From Candidatus Woesearchaeota archaeon (lineage in GTDB: Archaea > Nanobdellota > Nanobdellia > SCGC-AAA011-G17 > ARS1403), in contig JACOZQ010000025.1 of the NCBI GenBank assembly GCA_016181275.1, positions 1 through 42,638 of the forward strand: a stretch of 42,638 nucleotides of DNA. Reading direction: 5' to 3'. Positions 1 through 6,178 of the stretch are shown piece by piece. Both the position numbers and the translations under genes were made by a program. The notes below the pieces were generated by a model. That model saw nothing but the letters and a program-made list of their open reading frames with translations. It was not told the origin of the DNA and ran no database searches. Each line of letters starts with the position of its first letter. Position 1 is the first letter of the stretch.

Positions 1-46
1 AGTAAAATTTATAAAGCTTTTAAAGATTATTATATTAACATGATCC

Positions 47-70
47 CCAGTGATCCAAATGGGTCGCTGG
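47..70 (+). other. Hairpin: CCAGTGATCC-AAAT-GGGTCGCTGG (10-bp stem with two G-U pairs, 4-nt loop) upstream of the NYN gene
   Basis: Read directly: 47-56 pairs with 61-70. It lies downstream of a TATA-like stretch (tttataaag, about 8-16). Confidence 0.5.
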
Positions 71-113
71 ATGAGTCCTTTTTCTTGTTGAACCTTAATT
101 GGAGCGATACATA

Positions 114-725
114 ATGGAAGATACATTAGTTTTTCTTGATGCAGGATTTTTATCCAAGCTTTCAAAGCATTTTGGAAAAGGAAAATATTTAGTTTATGAT
201 ATTGTTAGATTTTCAGAGCATATTTCGAAAAAACAAAATCTATCCTGTAAAAACATTTTTTATTATACTGCTCCTCCTTTTATGCCGGGGAGGCCTTCAA
301 AAAAAGAAACAAAAAGAAAAAAATTGTATGATGACTTTATTTCAAAGCTTTCAAAAAACAAAAATCTTACTGTACGTGAAGGAAGATGCCAAAGATTAAA
401 AATAAATAATAAATTTGAATATATCCAAAAGGGAGTAGATTCATTAGTTGTAATAGATTTAATGAATGTTTGTATAGATTATCCTGAAATTAAAAAGATA
501 ATCATTATTGCTTGTGATTCGGATTTTGTTCCAGTAATTGATGATTTAAAAAGGAAGGGGATAAAAACTACCCTCTATACTTATTATGAAAGAGGAAGAA
601 AGGCAAAGTTTTCAACATCAAATGAATTAATAAAATCTGTTGATAAATATGTTTTGCTATTAAAAGAAAACTTTACTTCCTTTCAATTAACTAAAATTCA
701 AAATGCCAACCATAACATTAAATAA
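114..725 (+). CDS. NYN/LabA-like (DUF88) PIN-fold putative RNase
   Basis: ORF with LVFLDAGFL near the N-terminus, GVDSLVVIDLMN and IIIACDSDFVPVI motifs typical of NYN domains. Start taken at ATG 114 (MEDTLVFLDAGF); the track starts at TTG 99. The 3' end overlaps a pheT-like start at 703. Confidence 0.8.
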   Translation: MEDTLVFLDAGFLSKLSKHFGKGKYLVYDIVRFSEHISKKQNLSCKNIFYYTAPPFMPGRPSKKETKRKKLYDDFISKLSKNKNLTVREGRCQRLKINNKFEYIQKGVDSLVVIDLMNVCIDYPEIKKIIIIACDSDFVPVIDDLKRKGIKTTLYTYYERGRKAKFSTSNELIKSVDKYVLLLKENFTSFQLTKIQNANHNIK

Positions 726-745
726 AAAACAATTTGAAGAATTGG
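692..745 (+). repeat. Left copy of 54-nt direct repeat (pheT 5' end)
   Basis: taaaattcaaaatgccaaccataacattaaataaaaaacaatttgaagaattgg; one mismatch to 1861-1914. Confidence 0.95.
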
Positions 746-774
746 AGTTAAGACTTTCAGAAGATTATATCTGA
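703..774 (+). pseudogene. Truncated duplicate of the pheT 5' end (MPTITLNKKQFEELELRLSEDYI*)
   Basis: The first 14 codons match PheT MPTIILNKKQFEEL; nucleotides 692-745 match 1861-1914 at 53 of 54 positions, then diverge to a stop. Confidence 0.8.
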
Positions 775-777
775 TTA

Positions 778-1839
778 ATGAACATTAAAATGGTTTCAGA
801 AAGAAATAAAATATTGAAAGAGAATCATTATGGTAGTTTGATTACTAATATCGGCAGTATTCTTGAAAAAAGGAGACAACAAGCATACAAAGTTATTAAT
901 GAAATCCTTGTTAAAACATATTGGGAGATAGGAAGACAGATTGTAGAGTTTGAGCAAGAAGGGAAGGAAAAAGCAGAATATGGTTCGTCACTTCTTAATA
1001 ATTTATCAAGAGATTTAAGATTAAAATATGGAAAGGGATTTAGTAAAAGCAATGTCTATCTTATGAGATTATTATATACTAAATACCAAAAATTCCAGAC
1101 ACCGTCTGGAAAATTGAATTGGAGTCATTATGTGGAACTACTTGGCATTGAAGAAGATTTAGAAAGAAAATTTTATGAGAAACAATGCATTTCAGATGGA
1201 TGGAGTGTAAGAGAATTAAAACGACAAATAAATTCTGTTTTATTTCATAGAATAGCATTAAGTAAGAATAAAAAAGAGATTTTAGAATTATCAAAAAATG
1301 GGCAGATTATTAATAAAGATGAAGATATCCTCAAAGATCCTTATGTATTAGAATTTTTAAAAATACCTGAAAATTATAAATATACGGAAAAACAATTAGA
1401 ACAGAAGATAATTGATAATCTTCAGATGTTTTTATTAGAATTAGGAAAGGGATTTACTTTTGTAGCAAGACAATATAGAATATCTTTGGACAATAATCAT
1501 TTTTATGTAGACTTAGTTTTTTACCATAGAATTCTAAAATGCTTTGTTCTTATTGACCTAAAGGTTGGACAAGTTACTCATCAAAACATTGGTCAGATGA
1601 ATTTATATCTTAACTATTTTAAAGAAGAAGAAAATAGTGAAAGTGATAATCCCCAAATTGGAATCGTTCTTGGAACTGAGAAAGATCATTTAACAGCAAG
1701 ATATGCCCTTGGTGGCATCTCAAATAAACTTTTTGTATCAAAATATAAGCTATATTTACCTAATAAGGAGGAATTAGAAAGGAAATTGGATGAGTCTTTA
1801 GCAAGAACCAAAAAAGTCAAAAGGCCAGGCACTGTCTGA
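778..1839 (+). CDS. DUF1016 (YhcG-like) PDDEXK nuclease family protein
   Basis: N-terminal IEILxxRRQQAYKVINEILVKTYWEIGRQIVEFEQ-type region and C-terminal FYVDLVFYHRILKCFVLIDLKVGQ (PDDEXK-like core); full length for the family. Confidence 0.88.
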   Translation: MNIKMVSERNKILKENHYGSLITNIGSILEKRRQQAYKVINEILVKTYWEIGRQIVEFEQEGKEKAEYGSSLLNNLSRDLRLKYGKGFSKSNVYLMRLLYTKYQKFQTPSGKLNWSHYVELLGIEEDLERKFYEKQCISDGWSVRELKRQINSVLFHRIALSKNKKEILELSKNGQIINKDEDILKDPYVLEFLKIPENYKYTEKQLEQKIIDNLQMFLLELGKGFTFVARQYRISLDNNHFYVDLVFYHRILKCFVLIDLKVGQVTHQNIGQMNLYLNYFKEEENSESDNPQIGIVLGTEKDHLTARYALGGISNKLFVSKYKLYLPNKEELERKLDESLARTKKVKRPGTV

Positions 1840-1860
1840 TTAATTAAGACTCCATTGTAT

Positions 1861-1914
1861 TAAAATTCAAAATGCCAACCATAATATTAAATAAAAAACA
1901 ATTTGAAGAATTGG
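1861..1914 (+). repeat. Right copy of 54-nt direct repeat (start of intact pheT)
   Basis: taaaattcaaaatgccaaccataatattaaataaaaaacaatttgaagaattgg. Confidence 0.95.
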
Positions 1915-3494
1915 CAGGAAAGAAACTGCCATTAGAAGAGTTAAAAGACAGGATTTCCATGCTAGGAACTGATCTTGAAAAAATAGAAGGCAATGAAATT
2001 ATTGTAGAAGTTTTTCCAAACAGGCCGGATATGCTGAGTGAGCAGGGATTTGCAAGAGCCTTTAGCTCTTTTATTGGTGTTAAGAAAGGATTGAGAAAAT
2101 ATCATGCTAGAAAATCTAATTATAAAGTTGAGGTTGATGCAAGCGTTAAGAAAGTAAGACCTGAGACTGTTTGTGCTGTTGTTAAAAATTTAATATTGGA
2201 TGATGAGAAAATTAAAAGCATTATCCAGATTCAGGAAAAATTACATATCGGATATGGAAGAAATAGAAAGAAAGCTGCTATCGGAATTTATCCATTAAAT
2301 AAAATTAAATTTCCTGTAAGATATTTAGCTAAAAAACCAGAGGAAATTAAGTTTAAACCATTAGAAATGAGCCAGGTTTTAAATGGAAAACAAATATTAG
2401 AACTGCATCCTACTGGGAGGGAATATAAGAATTTATTAGAGAATGAGAAAACCTATCCAATATTTATTGATGCTAATGATAATATTTTATCAATGCCCCC
2501 GATAATTAATTCTGATGATGTTGGCAAAGTGACTGAAGACACGAAAGATGTTTTTGTTGAATGCTCAGGATTTGATTATAATATTTTGAGCAAATGCTTG
2601 AATATAATTGTGGCTGCTTTAGCTGACATTAATGGAAGGATATATGAAGTTAAGATAAATAATAAAATAAGTCCAAATTTAGAACCTAAAGAAGAAAAAT
2701 TAGACATAAAATATGTTAATAAGATGTTAGGTCTTGAGCTTAAAGAAAAAGATGTTAATGAACTGCTTGAAAGAATGGGATATGATTATAATAACGGAAA
2801 AGTTTTAGTTCCTTGTTATAGGACGGATATTTTGCATCAGATTGACTTTGTTGAAGACATTGCAATTGCTTATGGCTATGAGAACTTTGTTGAGGAAATA
2901 CCTAATGTAAGCACAATTGGAAAAGAAAGCGGGAAAGGCAAGTTTAATAAAAAAATTTCTGAGATATTGATTGGATTGGGATTATTGGAATGCAGCTCTG
3001 TAAGTTTAAGCAATGAAGAAATTCTAAATAGAAAAATGAATGTTAAGAATAAACTAGTGAAAGTTGAATCTCCGGTTAACCAGGATTATGATACTTTAAG
3101 GAATTTTATGCTGCCTGGATTGCTAAAGATTCTATCTGAGAATAAAAGATATGAATATCCGCAGAATATTTTTGAGATTGGAAAAATTTTTGATGATATT
3201 ACAGATAAAGATTCTTTAGGAATTGTTGTTACTGGAAATTTTACTATGATTAAGCAGAAGTTAGATGTTTTATTTTCTTTATTAGATATAAAATATGAAA
3301 TAAAGGAAGATGAAAATGGAAGTTTTATTATTGGAAGATGCGGGAAGATAATTGTTAATGAAAAAGAATTGGGTGTTATTGGTGAAATGAGTCCCATTGT
3401 TTTGGATAGTTTTGGAATTGATGTGCCTTGCAGCGGATTGGAAATTAATTTAGAAAGGTTAGATCTGTTTACTAGAGTTATTGAGGAACTCTAA
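1872..3494 (+). CDS. pheT: Phenylalanyl-tRNA synthetase beta subunit (archaeal type)
   Basis: 540 aa; NRPDMLSEQGFARAFSSFIG, YGRNRKKAAIGIYPL, PIINSDDVGKVTEDTKDVFVECSG, PCYRTDILHQIDFVEDIAIAYGY motifs. Confidence 0.96.
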   Translation: MPTIILNKKQFEELAGKKLPLEELKDRISMLGTDLEKIEGNEIIVEVFPNRPDMLSEQGFARAFSSFIGVKKGLRKYHARKSNYKVEVDASVKKVRPETVCAVVKNLILDDEKIKSIIQIQEKLHIGYGRNRKKAAIGIYPLNKIKFPVRYLAKKPEEIKFKPLEMSQVLNGKQILELHPTGREYKNLLENEKTYPIFIDANDNILSMPPIINSDDVGKVTEDTKDVFVECSGFDYNILSKCLNIIVAALADINGRIYEVKINNKISPNLEPKEEKLDIKYVNKMLGLELKEKDVNELLERMGYDYNNGKVLVPCYRTDILHQIDFVEDIAIAYGYENFVEEIPNVSTIGKESGKGKFNKKISEILIGLGLLECSSVSLSNEEILNRKMNVKNKLVKVESPVNQDYDTLRNFMLPGLLKILSENKRYEYPQNIFEIGKIFDDITDKDSLGIVVTGNFTMIKQKLDVLFSLLDIKYEIKEDENGSFIIGRCGKIIVNEKELGVIGEMSPIVLDSFGIDVPCSGLEINLERLDLFTRVIEEL

Positions 3495-3802
3495 AATTTA
3501 AATAAAACCTTTTCAAAATCTACAATCTTTTCACCTTGAAATTTGATGCCTTCTTTTTCTAACATTTTAATTTTTTTCTGAATTTCTTTTCCAGAGGTTT
3601 TTCCTTTAAAACCACAAATATCTCCAGAGGAAGAAACAACACGATGACAGGGTGTTGAAGGTGCATTTGGATTATTTTTCAAACATTGTCCTATTGCTCT
3701 GTAAGCTTTTGTATCTAATGCTTTACCTAATTCCAAATATGTAGAAATCTTTCCTTCAGGAATTTGTTTACATAATTCATATATTTTTTCAGCTAATTTC
3801 AT
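3491..3802 (-). CDS. MGMT-family DNA-binding/alkyltransferase domain protein (PCHR active site)
   Basis: GKISTYLELGKAL...AIGQCLKNNP...TPCHRVVSSSGDICGF; only the C-terminal Ogt domain (103 aa). Confidence 0.9.
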   Translation of the reverse strand: MKLAEKIYELCKQIPEGKISTYLELGKALDTKAYRAIGQCLKNNPNAPSTPCHRVVSSSGDICGFKGKTSGKEIQKKIKMLEKEGIKFQGEKIVDFEKVLFKF

Positions 3803-4146
3803 TCTAATCCTAAACTGACTTTTATGGCTGAATCAATTCTTTTCATTATATAACTTTCAAGTGCACTTATTTTTTTAATGATTCTTGATTTGTCAATTGT
3901 TCTTATTTGATTAAGAAGAATTTTTGATTCTTTTTCTAATTTAGAATCTTTAGGTAAAACCTTTACATCTGTAGGAAACTCTTCTTCAATGCCTTTTGAT
4001 GTTATTGGTGCAATAATTGTTGTTGGGCTATAATTGTTTCCTATATCATTTTGGATTACCAAAACAGGCCTTACACTTCCTTGCTCACTTCCCTTGACTG
4101 GCTCAAGGTTTACCATAAGAATATCTCCTCTTTTTATATTTACCAT
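3799..4146 (-). CDS. MazF/PemK-like endoribonuclease toxin
   Basis: KRGDILMVNLEPVKGSEQGSVRPVLVIQND...TTIIAPIT...LLNQIRTIDKSRI. Confidence 0.93.
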   Translation of the reverse strand: MVNIKRGDILMVNLEPVKGSEQGSVRPVLVIQNDIGNNYSPTTIIAPITSKGIEEEFPTDVKVLPKDSKLEKESKILLNQIRTIDKSRIIKKISALESYIMKRIDSAIKVSLGLE

Positions 4147-4370
4147 TCCCAGTCCAACTCTTTATCTGTTGCTTCCCAATCTCTTGTTATCCTCAGACTT
4201 TCTTTAGCCATTTTTTTATAACCTTTAATCATTAATTTTTCATTTAGTATTTTTTGTTTGTTCTCTAAATCTAAAAGTCTACTTATCACACTTTCATAAC
4301 TTTCCCTCTCATTTTTAATTAAATCTAATCCTTTCTTTATGTCTTTATGTATTTGAATGGTTGTAATCAT
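4140..4370 (-). CDS. Putative RHH-type antitoxin of the MazF-like pair
   Basis: Overlaps the toxin start; 76 aa; ITTIQIHKDIKKGLDLIKNERESYESVISRLLDLE. Confidence 0.8.
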   Translation of the reverse strand: MITTIQIHKDIKKGLDLIKNERESYESVISRLLDLENKQKILNEKLMIKGYKKMAKESLRITRDWEATDKELDWEW

Positions 4371-4441
4371 AAGAATCTATAGAATTTCTATAGTATTTAA
4401 AGTTTTCTAAAATAAAAAGAGATAATCCCCTAATTAGAGGA

Positions 4442-4849
4442 TTACGTAACTGTAAAGTAAGCTCTTCCCAGCTCTTTATTTGTCTGGTATTCTTTCAACA
4501 GCGCATAATAGCCGCCATTCCATCCTGGGCTTGTTACACAATTGGCTATCAATGTCTTTCCTGCTTCTCCAAATCTTGGCTTGCTGCACCAGTTTCCATC
4601 ACAATTGTCAAAGCTGCAGGTTCTTACTTCCGAGCCGCCGACTTTTCTCAGCTCGACTGCATTCTTGATTCTGTTTCCATTTGCATTTACCATGACTGTA
4701 ACTTGATCGCCTGATGTTACTGATGGGGTGACAGAAACATCAACATTAGAAACAGCTGCACCGGTTATCTTGTCGAAATTAACTGCAACTAATGCAACAG
4801 CAACTACGACTGCAGCAACTAAAAGCACTGTCCTGTTTTTCTGATCCAT
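4442..4849 (-). CDS. Signal-anchored secreted small protein (tandem paralog A)
   Basis: N-terminal TM helix then KITGAAV; C-terminal GYYALLKEYQTNKELGRAYFTV; Cys pair CSFDNC. Confidence 0.75.
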   Translation of the reverse strand: MDQKNRTVLLVAAVVVAVALVAVNFDKITGAAVSNVDVSVTPSVTSGDQVTVMVNANGNRIKNAVELRKVGGSEVRTCSFDNCDGNWCSKPRFGEAGKTLIANCVTSPGWNGGYYALLKEYQTNKELGRAYFTVT

Positions 4850-4891
4850 ATTTCATCCTCCTTTTTTGATTATAATTTTTTATTTTTATTT

Positions 4892-5293
4892 TCAAGCTAC
4901 TGTGAATAATGCTTTATTGCCAACCATCTCTCCTCTTCTATTCTTTGCTTGAATATAATAACTTCCTGAGCTCATTGTTGTTGGAATTTTGTATTCCAAA
5001 TCACAATCATAAGTTCCTGAAACTTTTCTGCTGCTGCATTTTGATGCCCTTGCAAAAAATCTCTTTGCTGTATATTCACCATCAACCTCGTATATTTTGA
5101 ACTCTTGTGAAGTAGTCTCTGCATCTCTTACACTTACCAAAACACTAAAGCCCTGCATAACCGGGGAATTTGTAACTGTAACTACTGGATCAATTTTCGC
5201 TTTTGCTACGTTTCCCGTTAATCCGTCGATATTAAACAAAAATGCTGCAGCTACAATGATTCCAACTGCCCAAAGCAAAACATTTCTTTCCAT
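4892..5293 (-). CDS. Signal-anchored secreted small protein (tandem paralog B)
   Basis: TM helix then GLTGNVAK; C-terminal GSYYIQAKNRRGEMVGNKALFTV; Cys pair. Confidence 0.75.
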   Translation of the reverse strand: MERNVLLWAVGIIVAAAFLFNIDGLTGNVAKAKIDPVVTVTNSPVMQGFSVLVSVRDAETTSQEFKIYEVDGEYTAKRFFARASKCSSRKVSGTYDCDLEYKIPTTMSSGSYYIQAKNRRGEMVGNKALFTVA

Positions 5294-5296
5294 TTT

Positions 5297-5749
5297 TTAC
5301 CTTCCTGTTTCCTGATATTTTGAATCTGAAACTGTGAAAAATGCTTTATTGCCAATTAATTCCCCTGATGCATCGTCTTTTACCTGGATAAAATACTTTC
5401 CATTTGGCAATTCTGAAATTGGAATATTGAAGCCTGCTTCGCATCCATAATAACCGGCTGTTGCGAACTTGCAATCACCTATTCCGAACTCAAAACTTAT
5501 TCCGGTATAACTTTCATATTCAGAATAAACATATAACTTTGATGAGCTCGATGATTTAATATTATCTGCTGAAACAACAAGATCACTTCCTGCTGAAACA
5601 GCTGCATCTGAGTTTAAAACTTTTAAAACAGGAACTTTAACTGCTGGTGTTCCTGATTTTGCAACATTGGCCGTAAAATTACTTAAATTAAAAATCACAA
5701 CCGCAACAACAACCACTCCTAGAATCCAAAATATTGTCTTTTTTTCCAT
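5297..5749 (-). CDS. Signal-anchored secreted small protein (tandem paralog C)
   Basis: TM helix then NFTANVAK; C-terminal GKYFIQVKDDASGELIGNKAFFTV; Cys pair. Confidence 0.75.
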   Translation of the reverse strand: MEKKTIFWILGVVVVAVVIFNLSNFTANVAKSGTPAVKVPVLKVLNSDAAVSAGSDLVVSADNIKSSSSSKLYVYSEYESYTGISFEFGIGDCKFATAGYYGCEAGFNIPISELPNGKYFIQVKDDASGELIGNKAFFTVSDSKYQETGR

Positions 5750-5755
5750 TTTAAT

Positions 5756-6178
5756 TTATCTTCCTCCATATAAAGAATCTTGAAATAAAAATTCTGCTTT
5801 TCCTGAAACCCCTGCAACCTTAATTGTATAGATTCCATCCTTCCATTGGTCTACCGGGGTTTTGTATATTGCCAATGAAGAAATGCATCTGCTTCCTGAT
5901 TTTTCAAAGCAGCTCATTTTTAAAGATCCTGATTTTGATGAGTAACGAGGATCATAAATAAAAACTCTCTTATTAGCTTCTGATGGGGTTATTTTAATAT
6001 AAACAGCATCGCCTGCCGAGATAGCAACCGAGCTTCCAGATGGGTTATCAAAGAAATTTTCTCCATCTGCTGATAAAGATATAACATGGTTTTCTGAAAC
6101 AACTGCCGATCCTGTAATTCTTTCAACATTGAATAATAATGCTATGAATACTATAACAGCGACTGCAGAAATAATCAC
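5756..6178 (-). CDS. Signal-anchored secreted small protein (tandem paralog D)
   Basis: TM helix then RITGSAV; Cys pair CFEKSGSRC; GTG start used by the track. Upstream in-frame codons read LVEKK, so the true start may be further upstream at a non-ATG codon. Confidence 0.68.
   Translation of the reverse strand: MIISAVAVIVFIALLFNVERITGSAVVSENHVISLSADGENFFDNPSGSSVAISAGDAVYIKITPSEANKRVFIYDPRYSSKSGSLKMSCFEKSGSRCISSLAIYKTPVDQWKDGIYTIKVAGVSGKAEFLFQDSLYGGR

Follow-up and report, generated by a model that had tools for sequence, protein, structure and literature searches.

Near the start of the window, by which we mean the whole 42.6-kb stretch of Candidatus Woesearchaeota DNA that was analysed, a NYN-domain gene, a DUF1016 gene and pheT follow one another on the forward strand (Table 1). 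The DUF1016 gene, which encodes a DUF1016_N domain followed by a YhcG_C domain, is bracketed by two direct repeats that are identical at 53 of 54 nt, the two pheT copies thus differing by one nucleotide, and that are spaced 1169 nt apart. This is the top short-range direct repeat of the whole window, and a region test against mismatched flanks gave p = 0 of 600. The right copy forms the beginning of pheT, an essential tRNA-synthetase gene that is intact here. The left copy is a remnant; it translates as MPTITLNKKQFEELELRLSEDYI* (23 codons) and overlaps the NYN ORF at its end: the NYN gene, which is the left neighbour, has its stop at 725, and its 3′ end now continues into the remnant. An earlier note on this DNA had described this arrangement, with a lone DUF1016/YhcG PD-(D/E)XK gene between the repeats and no recombinase, and the repeat alignment, the ORFs and the domain E-values confirm it: only one ORF, and no recombinase gene, lies within the unit. 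PADLOC assigns the gene to the candidate phage-defence family PDC-S02 (E 5e-139), and it is the only DUF1016 gene in the window's own genome (G000).

Table 1 Features of the pheT locus, in window coordinates.
Feature	Position	Strand	Basis and remarks
NYN-domain gene	99..725	+	Start probably ATG at 113; PF01936, 3.5e-12; G006 orthologue directly upstream of pheT
Left copy of pheT 5′ end, non-functional remnant (11 nt + 14 codons), stop after 23 codons	692..745	+	Repeat alignment; aligns with uninterrupted G006 NYN-pheT junction
Left inner border of insert (AGTTAAGACT...CTGATTAAT)	746..777	+	Sequence reading, border-word test
DUF1016_N + YhcG_C (PD-(D/E)XK) gene, the cargo, 353 aa	778..1839	+	Domain E 8e-44 and 3e-59; PADLOC PDC-S02
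Palindrome TTCCAGACACCGTCTGGAA inside DUF1016 gene, between the two domains	1093..1111	.	Position conserved in family, arms covary
Second, imperfect palindrome copy (CAGGCACTGTCTG) at 3′ end of DUF1016 ORF	1826..1838	.	Sole other copy in genome
Right inner border of insert (TTAATTAAGACTCCATTGTAT)	1840..1860	+	Sequence reading, border-word test
Right repeat copy, start of intact pheT	1861..1914	+	Repeat alignment; begins 11 nt before ATG, reaches codon 14
Intact pheT, PheRS beta subunit, 540 aa	1872..3494	+	ORF; Pfam PheRS beta domains

The earlier note had also placed two short words in both inner borders of the insert. Their positions are correct, and the second word, CTGATTAAT, is in fact longer, being part of a shared 10-mer, TCTGATTAAT (770-779 and 1835-1844). 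At least two shared 8-mers occur between random 40-nt stretches of the window with p of about 0.007, and the words shared by the inner borders at pheT are mildly unusual. No comparable pair was found in the other inserts described below. The possibility that the pheT remnant is longer but interrupted by a deletion was considered and rejected (p 0.26, not significant), and Rfam returned no match above the gathering score over 1-4400. Upstream of the NYN gene, window 47-92 (AACATGATCCCCAGTGATCCAAATGGGTCGCTGGATGAGTCCTT) is almost identical in the sister genome G006 and much better conserved than the sequence around it; it has no Rfam match. On the minus strand, window 4442-6178 holds a tandem series of four small ORFs; they are related, have hydrophobic N-termini and are probably secreted or membrane-anchored paralogues.

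The empty site is present in G006 (77% PheT identity), where the NYN stop is followed by a single nucleotide and then the pheT ATG. The alignment is collinear on both sides: it covers the left neighbour, then the left repeat copy, and continues into pheT. This supports the earlier proposal that the DUF1016 unit was inserted near pheT codon 14, between NYN and pheT, with doubling of the pheT 5′ end. Among 56 pheT-bearing relatives, no readable pheT upstream region contains a DUF1016 gene, and the closest DUF1016 homologue (77%, in sister genome G001) sits at another location. The empty site and the absence of DUF1016 at pheT in the relatives together identify the DUF1016 gene as a lineage-specific insertion, and rule out an ancient DUF1016 gene upstream of pheT. 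A second pheT 5′ fragment in G039 proved to be merely a contig-end overlap.

The same anatomy recurs around other cargo. A search for such scars with any cargo, covering about 90% of G000 (856 kb), returned twelve gene-end duplications, pheT and about 11 others; the same settings returned none in 400 kb of G014, a control genome from the same order (rate test p 0.01). Doubled 5′ ends belong to proS (42-nt repeat; cargo VapB-like + PIN), nth (32 nt; a 383-aa unknown), tgt (74 nt; ATPase_2/DUF234, PDC-S27), a PDDEXK gene (59 nt; nucleotidyltransferase + Fic, plus a small ORF), a SprT-like gene (31 nt; two small ORFs, one DUF2283-like by eye) and an SLFN/AlbA_2 gene (35 nt; cargo uncertain). Doubled 3′ ends belong to gatB (43 nt; Fic), lonB (32 nt; a PIN pair), a Cys-loop-like gene (82 nt; nucleotidyltransferase + HEPN) and a ferredoxin-like gene (54 nt; an AbiE-like pair by eye), and a HerA-like gene has a 71-nt repeat with uncertain cargo. 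Overall, the cargo of the scars is of VapBC, HEPN-nucleotidyltransferase, Fic, ATPase_2/DUF234, SLFN-AlbA, AbiE-like or DUF1016 type. The minimal homing-like element suggested in the earlier note, driven by the nuclease, is not supported by this comparison, since Fic, HEPN-MNT, VapBC, ATPase/DUF234 and AbiE-like cargo lie within the same kind of scar. Nor is the 5′ end special, since 3′ ends are duplicated too.

Sister genomes show related arrangements. G001 holds two more scars in about 320 kb, as well as an array (G001:C26; L061, 1-8600) that contains four pieces of the 5′ region of a single surface-protein gene. Unrelated small defence or toxin-antitoxin-like genes (AbrB-, ORF6N-, PLD-like, PIN-like and DUF1016) are interspersed between the pieces, and the intact gene closes the array. 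The proS/VapBC scar is common to G000 and G006, which were independently assembled, and is therefore older, while the Prx-nth junction is uninterrupted in G006. Cargo also abuts these ends without duplication: a PLD-like gene at pheT in G004, AbrB-RelE at proS in G002 and HEPN-MNT at the gatB 3′ end in G006. Because the same gene ends hold unduplicated cargo in sisters, the pheT, proS and gatB ends are hot spots for cargo. Repeat length ranges from 17 to 226 nt across loci, and neither terminal inverted repeats nor a recombinase accompanies the repeats. A side-by-side comparison of the inner borders of the G000 scars and the closest DUF1016 loci revealed no shared insert-end motif, so that transposon-like termini were rejected; nor do the target genes have a common core.

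DUF1016 genes elsewhere are also found at duplicated gene ends, for which the earlier note had suggested a search. A scan of 85,488 genomes yielded 55 close homologues (Woesearchaeota, Bacteroidetes, Spirochaetes and others). With flanks of about 200 nt, repeats scoring at least 13 were detected at 11 of 85 DUF1016 loci, against 0.57 expected from mismatched pairs; with 500-nt flanks and a score of at least 30, they were detected at 8 of 75 loci and at 2 of 259 control positions (Fisher 1.4e-4). The duplicated sequences include the 5′ end of murC (104 nt, Prolixibacteraceae), the 3′ ends of an oxidoreductase gene (183 nt, Ferruginibacter) and a wHTH gene (53 nt), the 5′ ends of a PDDEXK gene (57 nt) and purQ (22 nt), and the start of a further gene (17 nt), whose own start codon now serves the DUF1016 ORF. 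A repeat of about 120 nt from a GH130 5′ end brackets a distant DUF1016 gene in G047. The targets thus vary (pheT, murC, purQ, GH130, oxidoreductase and other genes), with no single site across genomes to which DUF1016 genes would be tied.

Several DUF1016 loci have other surroundings. Genomes of genus g27 (G028, G056, G073 and G040) carry 6-11 DUF1016 matches per 1.2-1.6 Mb, some of them broken; these copies have differing in-gene palindromes, and most are without a flank repeat. Loci L118, L119 and L126 place DUF1016 inside type I restriction-modification (R-M) operons, beside genes that are hsdS-like and hsdR-like by eye, with no flank repeat. Two Bacteroidetes loci (L139 and L160) have a common repeat (about CACCAAGTCAGGCACATTTGCAAGGCACACAAAGCCGACACACAAA) just before and after the DUF1016 ORF.

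The palindrome between the two DUF1016 domains is found at the equivalent place in about 65 DUF1016 genes (L001, L042, L056 and L062-L164). Over 65 DUF1016 genes, positions ±3 to ±8 are complementary in 94-100%, against 47-81% when shuffled, and as many as four kinds of base pair occur at a single position of the arms (examples are TTCCAGACACTGTCTGGAA, CGGAACGCACTGCGTTCCG and GGTGTGACAATGTCACACC). Distant DUF1016 members (30-38% identity) also have it, and tandem runs of 2-5 palindromes are present in L094, L095, L097, L139 and L143-L153. An mRNA hairpin was considered and rejected: G-T intermediates (6) are not commoner than A-C intermediates (9), which argues for a DNA symmetry rather than an RNA hairpin. 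The palindrome was also rejected as an element end, as copies of a gene's own palindrome are absent from the flanks except in the window and L063. In L063 (G103:C230), clusters of CAGACACTGTCTG-type palindromes lie on both sides of DUF1016, around 1000-1200 and 2950-3210, and match the in-gene one. The inter-domain palindrome is apparently undescribed, and one might guess that it serves as a self-recognition or autoregulatory site.

Two properties of the repeats bear on how the scars arose. The outer edge is pinned to the gene: in all 18 tabulated cases (some values read by eye from alignments), the part of the repeat external to the gene is shorter than the internal part, with a ratio sum of 1.6 where 9 is expected. 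The repeat usually extends 0-17 nt beyond the start or stop codon of the restored gene and 12-183 nt inside it; in the GH130 case it runs 47 nt outside the gene, through a diverged stretch. Symmetric target duplication does not predict such an edge, whereas a donor whose cargo already abuts the gene does. The other property is the nature of the differences between copies. All 8 differing codons in L033 (read from the ATG at 2068) and all 5 in L115 are synonymous, 13 of 13 in total, which suggests that both copies were functional while they diverged and hence that they probably originate from different genomes. Within G000 the copies are closer, and their differences, in roughly 16 to 22 codons, are a mix of synonymous and nonsynonymous changes. 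This pattern is consistent both with simple duplication and with a conspecific donor, the remnant having drifted later. Although G006 has the same proS remnant, the G000 copies remain 94% alike; gene conversion may thus even out differences between copies and obscure where they came from.

The anatomy is that of an insertion with long target duplication. Our explanation, in which we have moderate confidence, is that the pheT locus is the scar left by uptake of a lone defence gene at a housekeeping-gene end, one of about a dozen in G000, through one-sided homologous recombination combined with an illegitimate joint; the pinned edge and the synonymous-only differences are the reasons for preferring one joint of each kind. 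The incoming DNA would carry a defence gene directly beside a homologous copy of a gene G. On one side, ordinary homologous recombination would take place inside G, and on the other an illegitimate joint would form inside the recipient's own copy of the end of G, yielding a recipient G remnant, the cargo and a complete G with its end supplied by the donor. In this gene-dense genome, insertions that break G or its neighbour would be lost, so that selection would filter the survivors, and defence or addiction cargo would resist later loss, allowing survivors to accumulate. The unduplicated cargo at the same ends in G004, G002 and G006 is the kind of donor that this model needs. A donor genome with DUF1016 adjoining pheT was not found among the 56 pheT-bearing relatives, and we therefore infer the homologous side of the mechanism at this locus. 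Some DUF1016 loci, for example those in type I R-M operons, are without duplication, which counts against this explanation. About a dozen other toxin-antitoxin (TA) and defence genes are enclosed in the same way, so the scar is better read as a record of defence or TA gene acquisition than as a special homing element.

The main rival is a true long target duplication, in which distant staggered nicks or a template switch would capture foreign DNA and leave a 30-230 bp copy of target sequence at either end, with subsequent drift of the remnant; cargo would be random, and survivors would be the gene-sparing insertions with addictive cargo. It fits the anatomy, the variable repeat length, the lack of insert termini and the many G000 copies that are nearly identical with mixed changes, and accounts of R-M genes already propose it (PMC1643837, PMC3031569). 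However, it predicts neither an edge at the start or stop codon in 18 of 18 cases nor the synonymous-only differences in L033 and L115, and we regard it as possible rather than probable. Doubtful in our view is a combined reading in which a dedicated recombinase-free process in Woesearchaeota-like archaea would set single defence or TA genes precisely at gene ends, regenerating the end, and in which each DUF1016 product would use the covarying DNA palindrome of its own gene as a recognition or regulatory site.

Homing by the DUF1016 nuclease, whereby the enzyme would cut an uninterrupted gene end and repair would copy the nuclease gene in along with a restored end, appears improbable. The PD-(D/E)XK domain, the gene-end repeats at DUF1016 flanks across phyla, the multiplicity in genus g27 (as many as 11 copies in one genome) and an in-gene palindrome that could serve as recognition site are all in keeping with it, but Fic, HEPN-MNT, VapBC and ATPase genes carry the same scars, nearly every locus is a different target and most g27 copies have no flank repeat. 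The scar is thus independent of nuclease cargo, and the uninterrupted target sequence stays in the restored gene, where the enzyme would cut its own host. The earlier note's analogy to integrases that restore their target is a fair parallel insofar as the target gene is left intact, and the serial accretion of repeats in G001:C26 does resemble tandem islands. An integrase-type island that restores its attachment gene, its integrase lost or acting in trans, is nevertheless very unlikely: no integrase lies in or beside the units, the targets have no common core site, the repeats vary in length, and each cargo family occurs at unrelated targets. We give least credence to a misassembly, or a chimera of strains, at a short repeat. 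The contigs are metagenome-derived, and this one begins 99-113 nt before the NYN gene, but the repeat copies are not identical, the sequence at the left junction is unique, two independently assembled genomes have the proS scar and the isolate genome of Belliella kenyensis (L132) has similar scars.

The scars bear on the spread of transposase-less single-gene defence systems and TA pairs, notably in DPANN archaea. About a dozen scars, some with empty sites in sisters, show the entry point: housekeeping-gene ends, where a remnant and an intact copy remain. Newly acquired defence genes can be searched for in any genome by a simple signature, one or two genes enclosed by a gene-end duplication, and the mechanism is testable. 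The conserved palindrome, in turn, is the first candidate DNA ligand for the widespread, uncharacterised DUF1016 nuclease family.

The literature searched contained no description of such scars for DUF1016 or for these archaea, and the nearest known systems each share part of the anatomy. Integrases of the dusA type, among others, restore the 5′ end of a gene and so keep their target intact. The scars share the intact target with its regenerated end but have no integrase, no fixed core site and a variable repeat length. In mitochondria, homing-endonuclease elements substitute for the end of the gene that hosts them and likewise combine a nuclease gene with a replacement end, whereas most cargo here encodes no DNA nuclease and is not bound to a single target. 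Displaced-module arrays, namely T6SS immunity arrays and Rhs orphan ends (PMC5361080, PMC3240628), resemble the scars in pairing a homologous with an illegitimate joint, in leaving recipient-gene leftovers beside arriving genes and in growing into arrays by repetition, as in G001:C26; the mechanism that we prefer here, known as homology-facilitated illegitimate recombination, has already been proposed for the T6SS immunity arrays (PMC5361080). Their genes are toxin and immunity genes, whereas here the leftovers are housekeeping-gene ends and the arrivals intracellular TA and defence genes. Closest is the insertion of R-M genes with long target duplication (Nobusato et al. 2000, Gene 259:99, as presented in PMC1643837 and PMC3031569): according to these accounts, defence or addiction genes without a recombinase lie between long direct target repeats of variable length, with an empty site in a related strain. 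The cargo described there is an R-M system, where the window has DUF1016/PDC-S02 and the other scars have TA and defence genes. New relative to that class are the occurrence in DPANN archaea, the many TA and single-gene defence families, the repetition within one genome, the probable origin of some copies in different genomes and the pinning of the duplication's edge to gene ends.
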